Assembly: GCF_003344885.1 (NCBI RefSeq)
Contig: NZ_CP031155.1
Span: forward strand, 620,001 to 684,000
From: Altererythrobacter sp. ZODW24
Lineage (GTDB): Bacteria > Pseudomonadota > Alphaproteobacteria > Sphingomonadales > Sphingomonadaceae
Direction: 5' to 3'
DNA: 64,000 nt
Made by a program: the position numbers and the translations under genes. The notes below the pieces were generated by a model. That model saw only the letters and a list, made by a program, of their open reading frames with translations. It was not told where the DNA came from and did not search any database. The first letter of the stretch is position 1. Every line of letters begins with the position of its first letter. Positions 29,154-33,866 of the stretch are shown piece after piece.

Positions 29154-29262
29154 TTTGCGCCGACTACATGCAAGCTCCGCCGAAACGTTAAACTTTCCTT
29201 CGCCATTCACCGCTAGACCCGGTCTGCGGCCCTGATTGCCGCGCTTAACAGGGGTTAATGGC

Positions 29263-30444
29263 TTGGCGAGCAACTCGCTAATCGCACTGGATAAGGACGT
29301 GCAGCGCACTCTTACGCGCGCGGCCACCCCTGTCTGTGCAGACGGCGCGAGATTGCATGAATGGCGCGAATGCGTCTCGGCGGCTTATACCGCTGAATGG
29401 GATGCACTTGCAGCCATTGCCAGCGAACCCAATCCATTCTTCGAAAGCTGGTATCTTCAGCCATCGCTAGAAGCACTCGATCCGCACGGCGACGTGCAGA
29501 TTCTCGCAGTTGGACATGGTGACAAGCTGGTCGGGCTGATGCCGGTTGAGCGCACATTGCGCTATTATAGCTACCCGCTGCCAAACATATCCAACTGGAC
29601 CCATCCCAACTGTTTCCTTGGTTCACCGCTAGTCGCACGCGGCCAAGAAACCGCATTCTGGACCGCTTTACTCGCATGGGCTGATGAACGCCCTAGAGGC
29701 GGTCTCTTCCTGCATTTGCAGCACATCCCACTTGAGGGAGCGTTGATTGACGCCCTGCGCGAGGTAATTGCAGTAGATGCTCGTCCATCAGCATTGGTCC
29801 ACCGCGAACAGCGCGCAATGCTCGCCTCGCCGCTTTCAGCCGAAGACTATTTCGCCCAGTCAATGAGCGGCAAAAAACGCAAAGAGCTACGCCGCCAGCA
29901 CAAACGCTTATCGGAACTCGGCGAATTGGCCATCACCCGGCAATCCGATGAAATGGATGTCGGCGCATGGGTCGCAGATTTTCTGGCGCTGGAGCTGTCC
30001 GGCTGGAAGGGCAAGGCTGGCTCAGCACTCGCTGCCGCGTCAGAAACTAACCAGCTCTTCACACAGGCTTTAACTACTGCAGCCTTGCGGGGGCAGCTCG
30101 AAAGACTCGCCATCACGCTCGACGGCAGGCCCATCGCAATGTTGGCCAACCTTATCTCAGGCGCTGGTAGTTTTAGCTATAAGACGGCTTTTGACGAAGA
30201 CTATGCGCGCTTTTCTCCCGGTGTGCTCCTTCAACGCGAGAATCTCGCAATGCTAGACAGCGATGGCACAGAATGGGCCGATAGTTGCGCCTCTGCCGAT
30301 CACCCGATGATCGACCGCATCTGGCGGGAACGGCGCGCAATTGGCCGGGTCAGCATCGGCATCGGCGGTAGCTTGCGCCAGAGCATCTTCCGCCAACTAG
30401 CCAAGCACGAGATAGGCCGCGAACCGGACGGTATTGGATCATGA
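29263..30444 (+). CDS. GNAT/FemAB-like acyltransferase (BioF2-like domain)
   Basis: The protein of about 393 residues fits the Acetyltransf_6/FemAB-like family: ASEPNPFFESWYLQPSLEAL near the N-terminus, GKKRKELRRQHKRLSELGELA in the middle, and a C-terminal GNAT half (GQLERLAITLDGRPIAMLANL, FSYKTAFDEDYARFSPGVLL). Such enzymes transfer acyl or aminoacyl groups, often in envelope or polysaccharide modification. The start is a TTG at 29263 with an AGGGG site 8 bases upstream; another TTG at 29236 is possible. It overlaps the JmjC-like gene by 4 bases. Confidence 0.75.
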   Translation: MASNSLIALDKDVQRTLTRAATPVCADGARLHEWRECVSAAYTAEWDALAAIASEPNPFFESWYLQPSLEALDPHGDVQILAVGHGDKLVGLMPVERTLRYYSYPLPNISNWTHPNCFLGSPLVARGQETAFWTALLAWADERPRGGLFLHLQHIPLEGALIDALREVIAVDARPSALVHREQRAMLASPLSAEDYFAQSMSGKKRKELRRQHKRLSELGELAITRQSDEMDVGAWVADFLALELSGWKGKAGSALAAASETNQLFTQALTTAALRGQLERLAITLDGRPIAMLANLISGAGSFSYKTAFDEDYARFSPGVLLQRENLAMLDSDGTEWADSCASADHPMIDRIWRERRAIGRVSIGIGGSLRQSIFRQLAKHEIGREPDGIGS

Positions 30445-31316
30445 ACGCCCAAACGAAATTCTTGGCTGAAGCAGCCGCGCCCACCTTTGACGGTGAAGCA
30501 CGAGCGAAGTTCGCCAGCAGCTATCCAGAGGACCCGCACAAGTTGCACCATGCCTTGGCGCAAAGTGAACTGCTGACGCTTGAGGCATTGGCTTCACTCG
30601 GCGAGGCACTGCCCGAAACATCGGTCGAGTATAATCGCGGTGATTTGCCAATTGGTATTGATGGCAAACCCGGCGCAAGCGGATTGACTATCGGCGAGAC
30701 CATCCGAGGCGTCGAAAACGCCAATAGCTGGGCCGTGCTCAAGAACATCGAGCAGCAACCTGACTATGCTGCACTGTTAGCCTCGTTGCTCGATGAAATC
30801 CGGCCCGAGATTGAAGCGAAGACCGGCCCTATGCTGATGACGCAGGGCTTCATCTTCGTATCCTCGCCAAATGCAGTCACACCCTATCACTTCGACCCCG
30901 AGCATAATATTTTACTCCAATTGGTCGGCAGCAAAGTGATGACGCAATTCCCGGCAGGACACAATCGCTACGCACCCGACACGCTGCATGAAAGCTATCA
31001 CACGGGCGGCGCGCGCGAACTTGTTTGGAATGACGATTTACTGCGCGGCGGGCACGAATTTGCGCTCGAAAGCGGCGAAGCTGTCTATGTACCGGTGATG
31101 GCCCCGCACTTCGTCCGCAACGGCCCCACCCCGTCGATATCACTGTCGATCACTTGGCGCAGTGAATGGAGCTATGCCGAAGCCGATGCGCGCGCCTTCA
31201 ACGCGGCCTTGCGAAGGTTTGGGCTCACACCAAAGGCACCGGGGCGCTGGCCTACGAGCAATCGCGGCAAGGCATATGCAACGCGTATCCTACGCAGATT
31301 GGGATACCGCGCCTGA
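30441..31316 (+). CDS. Cupin-like/JmjC-type protein
   Basis: The 291-residue protein carries a JmjC/cupin-like core: TPYHFDPEHNILLQLVGSK gives the HxD iron pair, followed by the distal His in VMAPHFVRNG and a PAGHNRYAP loop. It is therefore a candidate Fe(II)/2-oxoglutarate hydroxylase. It overlaps the preceding acyltransferase gene (ATGA), so the two probably act on the same substrate. The substrate is not known. Confidence 0.75.
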   Translation: MNAQTKFLAEAAAPTFDGEARAKFASSYPEDPHKLHHALAQSELLTLEALASLGEALPETSVEYNRGDLPIGIDGKPGASGLTIGETIRGVENANSWAVLKNIEQQPDYAALLASLLDEIRPEIEAKTGPMLMTQGFIFVSSPNAVTPYHFDPEHNILLQLVGSKVMTQFPAGHNRYAPDTLHESYHTGGARELVWNDDLLRGGHEFALESGEAVYVPVMAPHFVRNGPTPSISLSITWRSEWSYAEADARAFNAALRRFGLTPKAPGRWPTSNRGKAYATRILRRLGYRA

Positions 31317-31355: not shown

Positions 31356-32249
31356 ATGGCTACTGACCCACTCTCTGAAAAACTCGTCGCAGGATTGCTG
31401 CGCCTTCTGGACGTCACGCAGACAGGCGAAGATGAATTTACCGGCCGCCACAAGAAGAACGGCGTTGGCCGGGTCTTCGGCGGGCAGGTGATCGCGCAGG
31501 CTCTGCTGGCAGCGGAAAAAACAGTTCCGGAAGACCGTGCCGCGCACTCGCTCCATGCCTACTTCCTGCGCGGCGGCAGCGAGGGTTTTGACGTCGATTA
31601 CTCGGTTGACCGCCAGTTTGACGGTGGAAGCTTTTGCAATCGGCGCGTTGTTGCAGCCCAGCAAGGCCGGCCGATACTCAACGTTGCTGCCAGCTTCCAG
31701 CGCCATGAAGAGGGATTGCACCATCAGGCAGAGGGGTTGCCCGATGTTCCCGGTCCTGACGACCTGCCAAGCGAGGCGGAAGAGCGCATCCGTCTGGCGA
31801 AAGAGCTACCCGAAGACAAAGCCGCATTTTTCCTCCAACCGCGCCCGATCGAGTCGCGCGCCGTAGAGGGGCGTCACTGGAACAGTTCAGAACCTGCCGC
31901 GCCGATTTCACACAGCTGGATCCGCGCCTCTGCGCCCTTACCCGATGACCCCCGCATCCACCGCGCAATTCTCGCTTACGCCAGCGACATGCAACTTCTC
32001 GGCACTTCTATGCTGCCACACGGTCTAAGCTGGGCACGCAACGAGATTTATGGGGCCAGCCTCGACCACACAGTCTGGTTCCACGAACCATTCCGCGCCG
32101 ACGAATGGATGCTGTACCAAAGCGACAGCCCTTGGACAGGGCGCGGCCGGGGCTTCAACCGTGGCCGCATTCTCAGCGCTGATGGTCGGCTAATCGCGAG
32201 TGTCGCTCAAGAGGGCATGGTGCGCCAAAAGAAGCAGCTCGCCGATTAG
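31356..32249 (+). CDS. tesB: Acyl-CoA thioesterase II (TesB family)
   Basis: The 297-residue double hot-dog enzyme hydrolyses acyl-CoA. Landmarks are GRVFGGQVIAQALLAAEKTV near residues 35-54, HSLHAYFLRGG, FCNRRVVAAQQGRPI and the C-terminal LDHTVWFHEPFRADEWMLYQ with the catalytic Asp. ATG 31356 is preferred to a TTG six bases earlier. Its stop codon is part of the palindrome TAGTACA-AG-TGTACTA that precedes the first leader-peptide gene. Confidence 0.93.
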   Translation: MATDPLSEKLVAGLLRLLDVTQTGEDEFTGRHKKNGVGRVFGGQVIAQALLAAEKTVPEDRAAHSLHAYFLRGGSEGFDVDYSVDRQFDGGSFCNRRVVAAQQGRPILNVAASFQRHEEGLHHQAEGLPDVPGPDDLPSEAEERIRLAKELPEDKAAFFLQPRPIESRAVEGRHWNSSEPAAPISHSWIRASAPLPDDPRIHRAILAYASDMQLLGTSMLPHGLSWARNEIYGASLDHTVWFHEPFRADEWMLYQSDSPWTGRGRGFNRGRILSADGRLIASVAQEGMVRQKKQLAD

Positions 32250-32262
32250 TACAAGTGTACTA
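32247..32262. promoter_or_regulatory. Operator-like palindrome, copy A
   Basis: TAGTACA-AG-TGTACTA is a perfect 16-bp palindrome; its first three bases are the tesB stop codon. A further half-site GTACTAG lies at 32271-32277, aligned with the second arm of the palindrome in copy B (32681-32698). Both lie about 100-130 bases upstream of a double-glycine peptide gene. A repressor or activator of TetR/LuxR-like symmetry could bind; no such regulator is encoded nearby. Confidence 0.55.
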
Positions 32263-32270
32263 CCGTCAAC

Positions 32271-32446
32271 GTACTAGACCCACCGGACGACGGACACCCG
32301 TTCTATTTTTCATTGTATCTCAGGCCGCTATTCACTCTTTCGACGATGATTGATCGTTATATAAAAGGAGACTGAAAATGAACGACCTCAACACCAATTC
32401 CATCCAAGAACTGTCGCTTGGCGAAACAGACAGCGTTGCAGGCGGC
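32271..32446 (+). repeat. Direct repeat copy A: promoter/leader unit of peptide gene 1
   Basis: This stretch is highly similar to 32692-32866: it contains GTACTAGACCCACCG, an inverted-repeat region around GGACA, CGTTCTATTTTTCA, TGTATCTCAG, TCGACGATGATTGATCGTTAT, the AAAAGGAGACTGAAA ribosome site and the 23-codon leader. The repeat stops where the leader ends, and the core-peptide part diverges faster, as expected for a duplicated peptide gene under constraint on export and expression. Confidence 0.85.
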
Positions 32447-32569
32447 TGCATCGACGTACCTGCTATCGTTGATGCTGCAAAAGAAGGCTTTGCCGAAGCT
32501 GGCGTCCCTGGTGCAATCGCAGGTGCTGTCCAAGAACTCGGTAGCCAACTGTCGCACCAGAACGACTGA
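32378..32569 (+). CDS. Double-glycine leader peptide 1 (bacteriocin/microcin-like)
   Basis: The 63-residue peptide starts at ATG 32378 after a strong AAAAGGAG site. Residues 1-23 form a double-glycine leader: relative to the cleavage site after GG it has Leu-12, Ser-11, Glu-8, Val-4, Gly-2 and Gly-1, the class II bacteriocin pattern. The predicted 40-residue core begins with Cys and contains DAAKEGFAEAG and a GAIAGAV glycine zipper; it is amphipathic and acidic. No C39-peptidase transporter or immunity gene is recognised nearby. Its paralogue follows at 32798. Role as bacteriocin or signalling peptide is inferred. Confidence 0.75.
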   Translation: MNDLNTNSIQELSLGETDSVAGGCIDVPAIVDAAKEGFAEAGVPGAIAGAVQELGSQLSHQND

Positions 32570-32582
32570 TTCCGACGCCCCA

Positions 32583-32621
32583 AAAATGCCGGACCTCCAT
32601 CAAATGGTGGTCCGGCATTTT
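32583..32621 (+). terminator. Rho-independent terminator after peptide gene 1
   Basis: AAAATGCCGGACC and GGTCCGGCATTTT form a 13-bp stem, extended by CCAT/ATGG across a T-T mismatch, 14 bases after the stop codon. The hairpin is flanked by A- and T-runs, so it can act in both directions. Confidence 0.85.
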
Positions 32622-32680
32622 GCCGTCTGGCCGGGCGACCCCGGGTCAAAGAAGTGCCGCAAAGAACCAACACGCTTGCA

Positions 32681-32698
32681 CTAGTACAATCGTACTAG
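32681..32698. promoter_or_regulatory. Operator-like palindrome, copy B
   Basis: CTAGTAC-AATC-GTACTAG is an 18-bp palindrome 100 bases upstream of peptide gene 2. It shares TAGTAC/GTACTA half-sites with copy A. Just downstream (32706-32724) GAACGAG-GGACA-CTCGTTC forms a second perfect inverted repeat, which is imperfect in copy A. Confidence 0.6.
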
Positions 32699-32866
32699 AC
32701 CCACCGAACGAGGGACACTCGTTCTATTTTTCACTGTATCTCAGTCCAGTATTCACTTTCTCGACGATGATTGATCGTTATCAAAAGGAGACTGAAAATG
32801 AAGGACCTCAACACCAATCCGATCCAAGAACTGTCACTGGTTGAAACCGATCAGGTCGCTGGCGGC
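32692..32866 (+). repeat. Direct repeat copy B: promoter/leader unit of peptide gene 2
   Basis: Second copy of the unit at 32271-32446, displaced by 420-421 bases. Upstream DNA, ribosome site and leader codons are conserved, with a one-base length difference just before the ribosome site (ATATAAAAGG against ATCAAAAGG). Confidence 0.85.
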
Positions 32867-33004
32867 GTTGACGTGGGCAAAGTCATTGACGCGGCAAAAG
32901 AAGGCGCGGCTGAAGGCGGCGCAGAAGGCGGAATGCTGGGCGCAATCGCAGGCGCGGTTTCAGGTGCCATTGATGAAGTCGGTCGCCAACTCTCCGAAGG
33001 CTGA
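32798..33004 (+). CDS. Double-glycine leader peptide 2 (bacteriocin/microcin-like)
   Basis: The 68-residue peptide has nearly the same 23-residue leader as peptide 1 (differences at residues 2, 8, 15 and 19) ending VAGG. The 45-residue core lacks Cys and reads VDVGKVIDAAKEGAAEGG, then a long glycine zipper GGMLGAIAGAVSGAIDEVG, and RQLSEG. Alternating small residues are typical of membrane-active class II peptides and of two-peptide bacteriocins. Peptides 1 and 2 may act together or be variants. The gene is followed by a GC-rich hairpin and a convergent stress-protein gene. Confidence 0.75.
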   Translation: MKDLNTNPIQELSLVETDQVAGGVDVGKVIDAAKEGAAEGGAEGGMLGAIAGAVSGAIDEVGRQLSEG

Positions 33005-33020
33005 TCGCGATAGCCAGTAT

Positions 33021-33047
33021 GCCGGGTCTCCCCTCAGGGGACCCGGC
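33021..33047. terminator. Hairpin between peptide gene 2 and usp
   Basis: GCCGGGT-CT-CCCC, loop TCA, GGGG-ACCCGGC form a strong stem with a two-base bulge. It lies 16 bases after the peptide 2 stop and just past the end of the convergent universal stress protein gene. There is no long T-run on either strand, so termination strength is uncertain. Confidence 0.55.
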
Positions 33048-33050
33048 TAT

Positions 33051-33866
33051 CTAATGCGCGAGCAGCAACGGCAGTTTCACATCGGACAGCATCTTGCGCG
33101 TGACACCGCCAAGGATAGTCTCGGACAACCGGCTGCTGCCATAGGCGCCCATCACCAGATACCCAGCCTCGCGCAGTGCAGCACCATCTAACAACTGCTT
33201 GGTCAGATGTTCTTTGCTCTCGGGTAGTTCGACGATTTCGCAACTGACGTCATGACGCGACAGATAATTGGCTCCGTCGAGCGGCGGAAAGTCGAATTTC
33301 CGCTTTTGCTTCTTTTCCTTCGCGCAAAGCAGATAGACCTTGCTTGCTCGTTTCAGCAGCGGCAGCGCCGCCCTGAGGGCGTTGCAGGCCTCGGTAGAAC
33401 CATCCCACGCGACGACTGCGGGCGCATCTATTGGGAAGCTCTTCTGATCATTTGGAACAACCATCAGCGGCGTGCGTGACTTCACCGCGATTGCACTGAC
33501 TGTGGGAGATGGGGATTTACCGTCCAACCGGGGCTCGTCTGCTCCGATTACCAACAGATCATTCAAGGCAGAATGGGCCAGCAGCCGGTCCTCGGCCGTG
33601 CCTGCTTGGTTCACAAAATTCCAAGCGACGTCCTCTTTGCTGCAATGCGCAGAAACTCGTTTCTCAAGCTCCTCGGCTGCCTCACGCATGACCGGAATCA
33701 TCGCAGCGAAGGCCGCGCCGTAAATGTCACCGGGAACAGCCATTTCGTAGGGGGTGGCGTTGAGGCATGTCATGTGCCCGTCAAACGCACGCACAATGTC
33801 CGCACCTACTTGCAATCGGCCATCGAGGCCGCTGTCGTCAAACGCGCTAACTAATATGGATCGCAT
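33051..33866 (-). CDS. Universal stress protein, tandem Usp domains
   Basis: The 271-residue protein contains two Usp domains, residues 1-140 and 145-271. The second has the ATP-binding G-x2-G-x9-G-(S/T)-type motif GAYGSSRLSETILGGVTRKML. Tandem Usp proteins respond to oxygen limitation and other stress in many proteobacteria. An FNR-type box 78 bases upstream, exactly placed relative to a -10 element, predicts induction under low oxygen. Confidence 0.9.
   Translation of the reverse strand: MRSILVSAFDDSGLDGRLQVGADIVRAFDGHMTCLNATPYEMAVPGDIYGAAFAAMIPVMREAAEELEKRVSAHCSKEDVAWNFVNQAGTAEDRLLAHSALNDLLVIGADEPRLDGKSPSPTVSAIAVKSRTPLMVVPNDQKSFPIDAPAVVAWDGSTEACNALRAALPLLKRASKVYLLCAKEKKQKRKFDFPPLDGANYLSRHDVSCEIVELPESKEHLTKQLLDGAALREAGYLVMGAYGSSRLSETILGGVTRKMLSDVKLPLLLAH

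Follow-up and report, generated by a model that had tools for sequence, protein, structure and literature searches.

How would two peptides that carry an export leader leave the cell when no exporter is encoded beside them, and what would they do outside? The question is raised by two small genes, here designated pepA and pepB, in a 64,000-nucleotide stretch of Altererythrobacter sp. ZODW24 (contig NZ_CP031155.1, positions 620,001 to 684,000; this whole stretch is the window below). Our answer, to which we assign a probability of about 0.65, is that they are bacteriocin-like cargo of a dispersed exporter regulon. They would be the precursors of two secreted, unmodified peptides, presumably with killing activity, each leader being cut after its double glycine (GG) and each core exported through the one C39-peptidase ATP-binding cassette (ABC) transporter of the genome and its HlyD adaptor. 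The small insert that holds the genes brings a palindromic control box with it, one copy for each gene. A kinase would sense an outside cue, perhaps a Trp-containing peptide, and a LuxR-type regulator would bind the boxes, so that the exporter is produced along with its peptide cargo.

The two precursor genes lie in tandem where a first-pass annotation, made from the sequence letters, had placed GG-leader genes of 63 and 68 codons with a common 23-residue leader:

32378..32569, plus strand: pepA, 63-residue GG-leader precursor whose core begins with Cys (open reading frame, leader, duplication)
32378..32446, plus strand: pepA leader, 23 codons, ending in GG (leader comparison)
32798..33004, plus strand: pepB, 68-residue GG-leader precursor with an extended glycine zipper (open reading frame, Bacteriocin_IIc score, glycine spacing)
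32798..32866, plus strand: pepB leader, 23 codons, ending in GG (leader comparison)

The 68 residues of pepB are counted from an ATG; the list of open reading frames (ORFs) has an earlier TTG, giving 77. Both leaders have Leu-12, Ser-11, Glu-8, Val-4 and GG as predicted, within the pattern IQELSxxExDxVAGG, and ten of their 23 codons differ, six silently and four with a change of residue. The strong ribosome sites that had been claimed are AGGAG motifs, 7 nucleotides 5' of the ATG in both genes. The two cores together have no Trp and a single Cys, the one at the start of the pepA core that had already been remarked on. Glycine zippers had been ascribed to both cores, and the claim holds for pepB, in which Gly at core positions 13, 17, 21, 25 and 29 forms a long i+4 series.

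The pair was duplicated together with its upstream DNA, 96 bp of which are 89% identical between the copies, as is an 84-bp leader-containing stretch at 83%. On one side of it an acyl-CoA thioesterase II gene ends at 32249, on the other lies a universal-stress-type gene of the opposite strand (33051-33866), and the DNA that holds the pair is missing from the two congeners G132 and G060:

32250..33050, no strand assigned: insert that separates the thioesterase and universal stress genes; both congeners lack it (congener comparison)
32270..32365, plus strand: pepA upstream region, 89% identical to pepB's 32691-32786 (repeat comparison)

From the last codon of the thioesterase gene to the last codon of the stress gene, ORF coordinates give 807 bp in the window; measured between aligned gene ends, the same gap comes to 23 bp (G132) and 18 bp (G060, with the thioesterase alignment ending three residues early). 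One of the three genomes of the genus has pepA and pepB. No exporter gene adjoins the pair, and neither a transporter nor an immunity gene was found beside it, in keeping with the first reading. A plasmid origin was considered and set aside, as tblastn of pepB against 72,556 plasmid records returned no match.

The distant C39 exporter that such precursors were said to need is present. A genome search for C39-peptidase transporters, which had been proposed as a check, matched PF03412 at two places in the whole 2.81 Mb single-contig genome, one of them a true exporter. This is a 701-residue C39/ABC protein at 1263205 (1.263 Mb, about 610 kb from pepA and pepB), with the HlyD adaptor gene immediately upstream. 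Its Peptidase_C39, ABC_membrane and ABC_tran matches all exceed their cut-offs, and HlyD_3 adjoins. The catalytic Cys and His are present and the third catalytic place is read as Asn; by our own reading of the alignment, Asn stands there in 12 of 13 exporters and Asp in one, from a contig titled Rhizobium laguerreae. An Asn as third catalytic residue is papain-like. The exporter on the Rhizobium-titled contig (L084) is 65% identical to that of ZODW24, a possible case of inter-order transfer or of contamination. The second match, a lone C39 protein at 2.409 Mb, was rejected as an exporter: its ORF has 243 residues and its best family is FapD (E 4.4e-64; 215.8 bits, below the cut-off of 330). 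This FapD-like peptidase is encoded amid genes resembling a Fap-type functional amyloid system (L004 5696-11613). Of 298 genomes of the family, 33 encode C39 proteins related to the exporter (E ≤ 1e-8). G060 is not among them, and this third genome of the genus matched neither the exporter query, nor the kinase query, nor the box pattern described below.

Beside the exporter lie genes for a hybrid histidine kinase, a 47-residue Trp-containing GG peptide, a divergently encoded LuxR-type response regulator (GerE/LuxR-type, 58.2 bits) and another GG peptide, pepC. What this locus and the insert have in common is a palindrome, TAGYRCA-N2-TGYRCTA, that precedes both pepA and pepB and had gone unmentioned in the first-pass annotation:

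32247..32262, no strand assigned: palindromic box TAGTACAAGTGTACTA, 131 bp 5' of pepA, overlapping the thioesterase stop codon (pattern search, sequence)
32682..32697, no strand assigned: palindromic box TAGTACAATCGTACTA, 116 bp 5' of pepB (pattern search)

The box also stands 5' of the exporter operon, of an operon of four peptide precursors and of a Cys-rich/GG-peptide operon and, in more degenerate form, 5' of the Trp-containing GG peptide whose gene separates kinase and regulator. Searching the ZODW24 genome with TAGYRCANNTGYRCTA at no more than one mismatch gave eight sites, against three for the reversed control. Five of the eight precede pepA, pepB, the adaptor/exporter operon and the Cys-rich operon (two sites); the other three fall within long ORFs. 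When TAGTACANNNGTACTA was searched at up to two mismatches, no site of the genome other than the two pep sites matched exactly, and the double site of the Cys-rich operon at 1.3027 Mb was found as well. Exact TAGYACANNTGTRCTA occurs three times in the 298 family genomes, twice in ZODW24 and once in G132, always at GG-peptide genes. With TAGYACANNTGTRCTA reversed as a control, eight of the 298 genomes had a single match; the argument hence lies in the placement of the forward sites and not in their rarity.

Placement can be followed at nine loci that have both kinase and exporter. A box scoring at least 11/14 was found in all 28 of their promoter windows, and one of at least 12/14 in 18. The 28 comprise ten windows 5' of kinase-side peptides (L061 has two), nine 5' of the adaptor and nine beside the regulator; the adaptor and regulator windows of L141 overlap and have sites in common. 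Mononucleotide shuffles of the windows gave a mean of 1.5 and a maximum of 5 in 200 rounds, and the rest of the nine loci has 42 box sites in 174,435 positions, or about 0.05 per promoter window. Five of the loci had been read when the consensus was set; at the other four (L076, L083, L140 and L141), 12 of 12 promoter windows have the box.

Two further operons of ZODW24 extend the set. A box at 557419 (12/14) lies 142 bp 5' of four tandem precursors with leaders ending in GA, an operon found independently by the leader profile (best E 4e-4). Two of the four precursors have near-identical WTDGK tails, and no immunity-like ORF was noticed in this operon (L010 1643-2436; own genome 557561-558354). 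At the same chromosomal place, flanked by what we take to be DUF1489 and DsbA-like genes, G132 has two other zipper peptides with a box 123 bp upstream, followed by a 65-residue ORF with two hydrophobic stretches that fails the start filter; G060 has an unrelated gene there. The difference between ZODW24 and G132 indicates that peptide content turns over as the place and its box persist. In the other operon (L012 7655-8479), two boxes 22 bp apart, the double site already named, precede a Cys-rich 149-residue gene and then an 86-residue GG precursor. The Cys-rich protein has no Pfam or NCBIfam match. G132 (L027) has kept the box of this operon, and its precursor is conserved nearly up to the GG, with a different core.

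Similar leaders occur elsewhere too. Aligned by hhalign with the leader that exporter-linked zipper peptides carry in relatives, the pepA/pepB leader reached a probability of 96.5% (E 7e-10, 24 columns). The first-pass annotation had held that its reading would fall if there were neither a C39 exporter in the genome nor conservation in relatives; since the exporter is present and the leader resembles those of exporter-linked peptides, it does not fall on that ground, although conservation stops at the leader. The cores have no convincing relative outside their own genome among the 298 family genomes, the sole matches being two weak partial ones (E 0.002 and E 0.006), both inside long open frames. 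A search of the three genomes of the genus gave one weak match (E 0.045) in G132, which led to a different zipper-peptide pair with leaders ending in GA, and 212 pattern matches in a wider contig collection were examined for relatives, none of them confirmed.

That lack of core relatives is one of several results that weigh against our reading. The pepA/pepB leader compares poorly with a second set of shorter exporter-linked peptides (69.8%, 18 columns). Homology of the cores to the exporter-linked small peptides was rejected, shuffles equalling the score in 74 of 500 rounds for pepA and 14 of 500 for pepB, and any similarity appears at most weak; for two members of the four-peptide operon, shuffles equal the score against the same core profile in just 0/500 and 1/500 rounds. 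The zipper claimed for the pepA core amounts to a single GxxxG, a minimal one. The class II bacteriocin type that had been proposed stands insofar as both are GG precursors and pepB comes just under the cut-off of Bacteriocin_IIc (PF10439; E 5.9e-6, 26.6 bits against 27.1), but pepA has no match to that family in the Pfam search. As to the box, TAGTACANNNGTACTA counted over all mismatch levels to two gives six forward sites against 21 for the reversed control. The genus search at one mismatch (controls 3 and 3) gave two sites at peptide genes in G132 and one, C2:198186, that is not at such a gene, as judged from ORFs of at least 60 residues. The ZODW24 boxes at the kinase-side peptide and at the regulator/pepC promoter score only 11/14. 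Directly 5' of the zipper peptides of L060-L062 there is no box (best 7-9/14); these peptides, encoded between pepC and the adaptor, may be transcribed by read-through. The regulator, finally, would be paired with the box by co-occurrence only.

The last such point is immunity. Beside pepA and pepB there is no immunity-like ORF that passes the start and ribosome-site filter, and the lack of a membrane ORF behind them either speaks against a simple bacteriocin or would mean that protection comes from elsewhere. In relatives, a small ORF with membrane stretches predicted by a simple hydropathy rule lies 3' of a zipper peptide in four of ten peptide regions (L060, L072, L076 and L078), and these ORFs are candidate immunity proteins; by the same rule none lies behind the zipper peptides of L061, L062, L074, L083 and L140. 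Some relatives also encode, near the exporter, GG precursors whose cores are Phe/Tyr/Leu-Pro repeats such as PFPDPFPF and PLPLPMPLPM (L060 12317-12505, minus strand; L076 7676-7879, plus; L140 11265-11471, minus).

With no immunity gene near, pepA and pepB might be secreted structural or biofilm peptides and not toxins, their zipper helices assembling at the cell surface after export. Precedents are the EbfG1-4 GG-motif proteins, which a passage of PMC4997328 describes as acting in Synechococcus biofilm, and CdzC, which according to a section of PMC5380434 aggregates on the Caulobacter cell surface. We nevertheless hold this explanation, the strongest of the alternatives, to be unlikely, for peptide content that differs at one place between congeners resembles an antagonism arsenal, small membrane ORFs stand behind some zipper peptides of relatives, and the family matches obtained are to Bacteriocin_IIc and MccV, all of them below cut-offs.

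Another alternative turns on the sensor cassette. Full-length matches to the kinase (E ≤ 1e-275, two candidates scored per genome) occur in seven of 397 family genomes, and four more genomes match its kinase part only (E about 1e-113 to 1e-117); two of the three genomes of the genus have it. For the genomes newly found to have the kinase, G336 and G373, exporter, regulator, Trp-containing GG peptide and box were expected, and all are present. A CHASE2 domain scores over the Pfam cut-off in five of seven kinase N-termini scanned; that of ZODW24 falls below it (E 0.005) and that of G132 gave no match. For comparison we assembled 30 distinct loci whose exporter genes are 60% or more identical to that of ZODW24 and at most 96% identical to one another. 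They include two close pairs, both without the kinase, and two loci with less than 2 kb upstream (L078 and L080). Left out were L075 and L087 (the same as L062 and L059), L031 (exporter at the contig start), L069-L070 (51%), L090-L125 (at most 44%) and the group L043-L058. All nine kinase loci have the regulator and, between it and the kinase, a GG peptide with at least two Trp in a core of 15-45 residues; the peptides of L076 and L083, which have non-ATG starts, were missed by the stricter ribosome-site filter and found by reading the interval. The 21 kinase-less exporter loci gave two pattern matches, one a long hydrophobic frame and the other rich in Arg, neither of them plausible. Fisher's one-sided test on the 30 loci gives 3.8e-6, a value to be read with the facts that the two-Trp rule was set after seeing all nine and that the loci are related, so these are not 30 independent draws.

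The cassette does not vary evenly. Identity between ZODW24 and G132 is 96% in the exporter (nonsynonymous distance, dN, 0.028), 95% in a halogenase gene, 93% in the adaptor, 90% in the regulator (dN 0.06), 86% in the gene behind the exporter and 61% in pepC. It is 78% in the kinase part, 73% in the receiver, 40% in the CHASE2 part (dN 0.58) and 39% in the Trp-containing peptide. Synonymous differences are 0.74-0.83 per site in the kinase gene and 0.51-0.68 in the flanking full-length genes. The congeners G197 and G373 show 31% in CHASE2 (dN 0.83), 69% in the kinase part, 76% in the adaptor and 85% in the exporter (dN 0.10). Such variability would fit an exchange of pherotypes, but fast evolution is common among sensors, and the comparison covers this kinase alone.

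GG-leader peptides are pheromones in streptococci, and the box of pepA and pepB resembles that of the sensor locus, so one may ask whether the two are themselves signals of the kinase. This seems improbable. Of the three genomes of the genus, one has the pair and two have the kinase, and another GG peptide stands between kinase and regulator at every one of the nine loci. The shared control element and the sister peptides favour effector cargo over a signal for pepA and pepB, and the GG peptide beside the kinase is the better signal candidate. As main pheromone, pepC was considered and rejected, its VTEGP..GCTEP-like core being rather stable and present also in the kinase-less L065.

A wider proposal, which we advance tentatively and at a little under even odds, is that these Gram-negative Sphingomonadales have a peptide quorum-sensing circuit. 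The C39 exporter would both ship the effectors and mature a secreted pheromone, the Trp-containing GG peptide encoded behind the CHASE2-type kinase; variable sensors and peptides would form pherotype pairs, and the LuxR-type regulator would switch on, through the palindrome, the peptide, the exporter and a swappable, chromosome-wide set of zipper bacteriocins including pepA and pepB.

The halogenase gene raises the thought that the precursors yield modified products, ribosomally synthesized and post-translationally modified peptides made with a Trp halogenase-like enzyme or the Cys-rich protein. A Trp_halogenase gene (634 bits) directly precedes the kinase gene in ZODW24 and G132 (L003 3519-5036 and L059 3297-4814), and the Cys-rich 149-residue gene, itself preceded by the box, stands before a GG peptide. 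Yet the pepA and pepB cores offer no Trp and one Cys in total, tblastn did not find the halogenase in the fetched 18-22 kb of the seven other kinase loci, and the neighbours of the pair are a thioesterase and a stress-type gene; we regard this as a shade less probable again than a signalling role. That the two ORFs are non-functional genes, as cores with no homologue outside their own genome might suggest, is very improbable given the common leader, the ribosome sites, the near-perfect boxes and six silent changes among ten leader codon differences.

Cargo under the control of a distant locus remains, then, our preferred reading of pepA and pepB, and the lesser features of the insert can be set beside it. 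Each gene had been credited with its own promoter region; a sigma-70 scan found no promoter-like site there. Each had also been given a hairpin, which the repeat search recovered for pepA, whereas that of pepB was read by eye. A scan for hairpins followed by T-runs found three sites against 1.1 in shuffles:

32583..32621, plus strand: hairpin with 18-bp stem 3' of pepA (repeat search)
33021..33047, plus strand: GC-rich hairpin 3' of pepB (by eye only; absent from the repeat-search listing)
32289..32302, plus strand: small hairpin then T-run, pepA upstream region (hairpin scan)
32706..32724, plus strand: 7-bp hairpin then T-run, pepB upstream region (hairpin scan)

In both copies the hairpin and T-run (32289-32302 and 32706-32724) sit between box and start codon, and they might be attenuators. 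Elsewhere in the window (29236-31316), a GNAT-type gene overlaps a Cupin_8/JmjC-like gene by 4 bp; the former is a relative of NCBIfam BspF (141.7 bits against a cut-off of 775), and the latter is below Pfam cut-offs.

The nearest described pair that we know of is CdzC/CdzD, presented in a section of PMC5380434 as a two-protein glycine-zipper bacteriocin of Caulobacter crescentus. Like it, pepA and pepB are two small adjacent genes of an alphaproteobacterium, with a secretion leader, a glycine zipper (in pepB), a polar C-terminus and, by prediction, type I export. Unlike it, they have an exporter 610 kb away and not in the cluster, a control box for each gene and no adjacent CdzI-like immunity gene that we found; the pepA zipper is minimal, and a kinase/regulator cassette accompanies the exporter. 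At 63 and 68 residues the precursors lie within the 60-151 of the Cdz description (PMC5380434), and both leaders end in GG, within its G[G/A/S]. The Cdz description has one or two zippers that Pro or charged residues flank without interrupting, and contact-dependent killing; the GxxxG runs of pepB partly have Glu inside and pepA has one GxxxG. The segments QLSHQND and RQLSEG were read by eye in the precursors against a further Cdz criterion of that report. Its screen, as one passage describes it, kept a match only if a type I system lay within 10 kb. The pair lies far outside this distance, and a screen of that kind would miss pepA and pepB because box-tagged inserts are scattered.

Class II microcins of the MccV type, from Enterobacterales, also have a GG leader and a C39 exporter with HlyD adaptor, and pepB has a weak score to the MccV profile; at 14.8 bits it is far below the cut-off of 27, however, the exporter is unlinked and the lineage is another. 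In Synechococcus elongatus, a passage of PMC4997328 describes several small GG-motif proteins (EbfG1-4) and one peptidase transporter, PteB, whose peptidase-domain Cys is required for efficient secretion. The likeness is one of description, and function there is in biofilm.

GG peptide signals in Gram-negative bacteria were reportedly proposed by Dirix et al. in 2004. That work is among those cited in PMC5524665. For microcins, a section of the review PMC10233263 gives quorum-sensing regulation as shown for MccPDI and asks for more work; the title of its reference names Autoinducer-2. A weak C39-motif protein of Azoarcus was considered a possible signal-peptide exporter and was inactivated, according to a passage of PMC3262810. 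Judged by title and start of abstract, the open-licence papers searched describe no Gram-negative bacterium in which a GG pheromone acts through its own kinase; as evidence of novelty this is weak. GG signalling in Gram-negatives can be tested directly here, as the genes are named, the palindrome is defined and nine natural pairings of kinase and peptide are available.

In the Gram-positive blp, pln and com regulons, a GG pheromone, a kinase and a regulator drive class II bacteriocins. The system around pepA and pepB shares with them a GG-peptide gene beside the kinase (9/9 loci), a variable sensor, and one box for exporter, peptide and scattered bacteriocin genes. It differs in its Gram-negative host, in a CHASE2-type hybrid kinase in place of a polytopic HPK10 kinase, in a LuxR/NarL-type regulator in place of LytTR and in a palindrome in place of direct repeats, and its signalling is putative. 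Its layout is like that of Gram-positive peptide signalling, set in a Gram-negative: scattered peptide genes appear to be under a single DNA switch, together with a distant exporter and a sensor.

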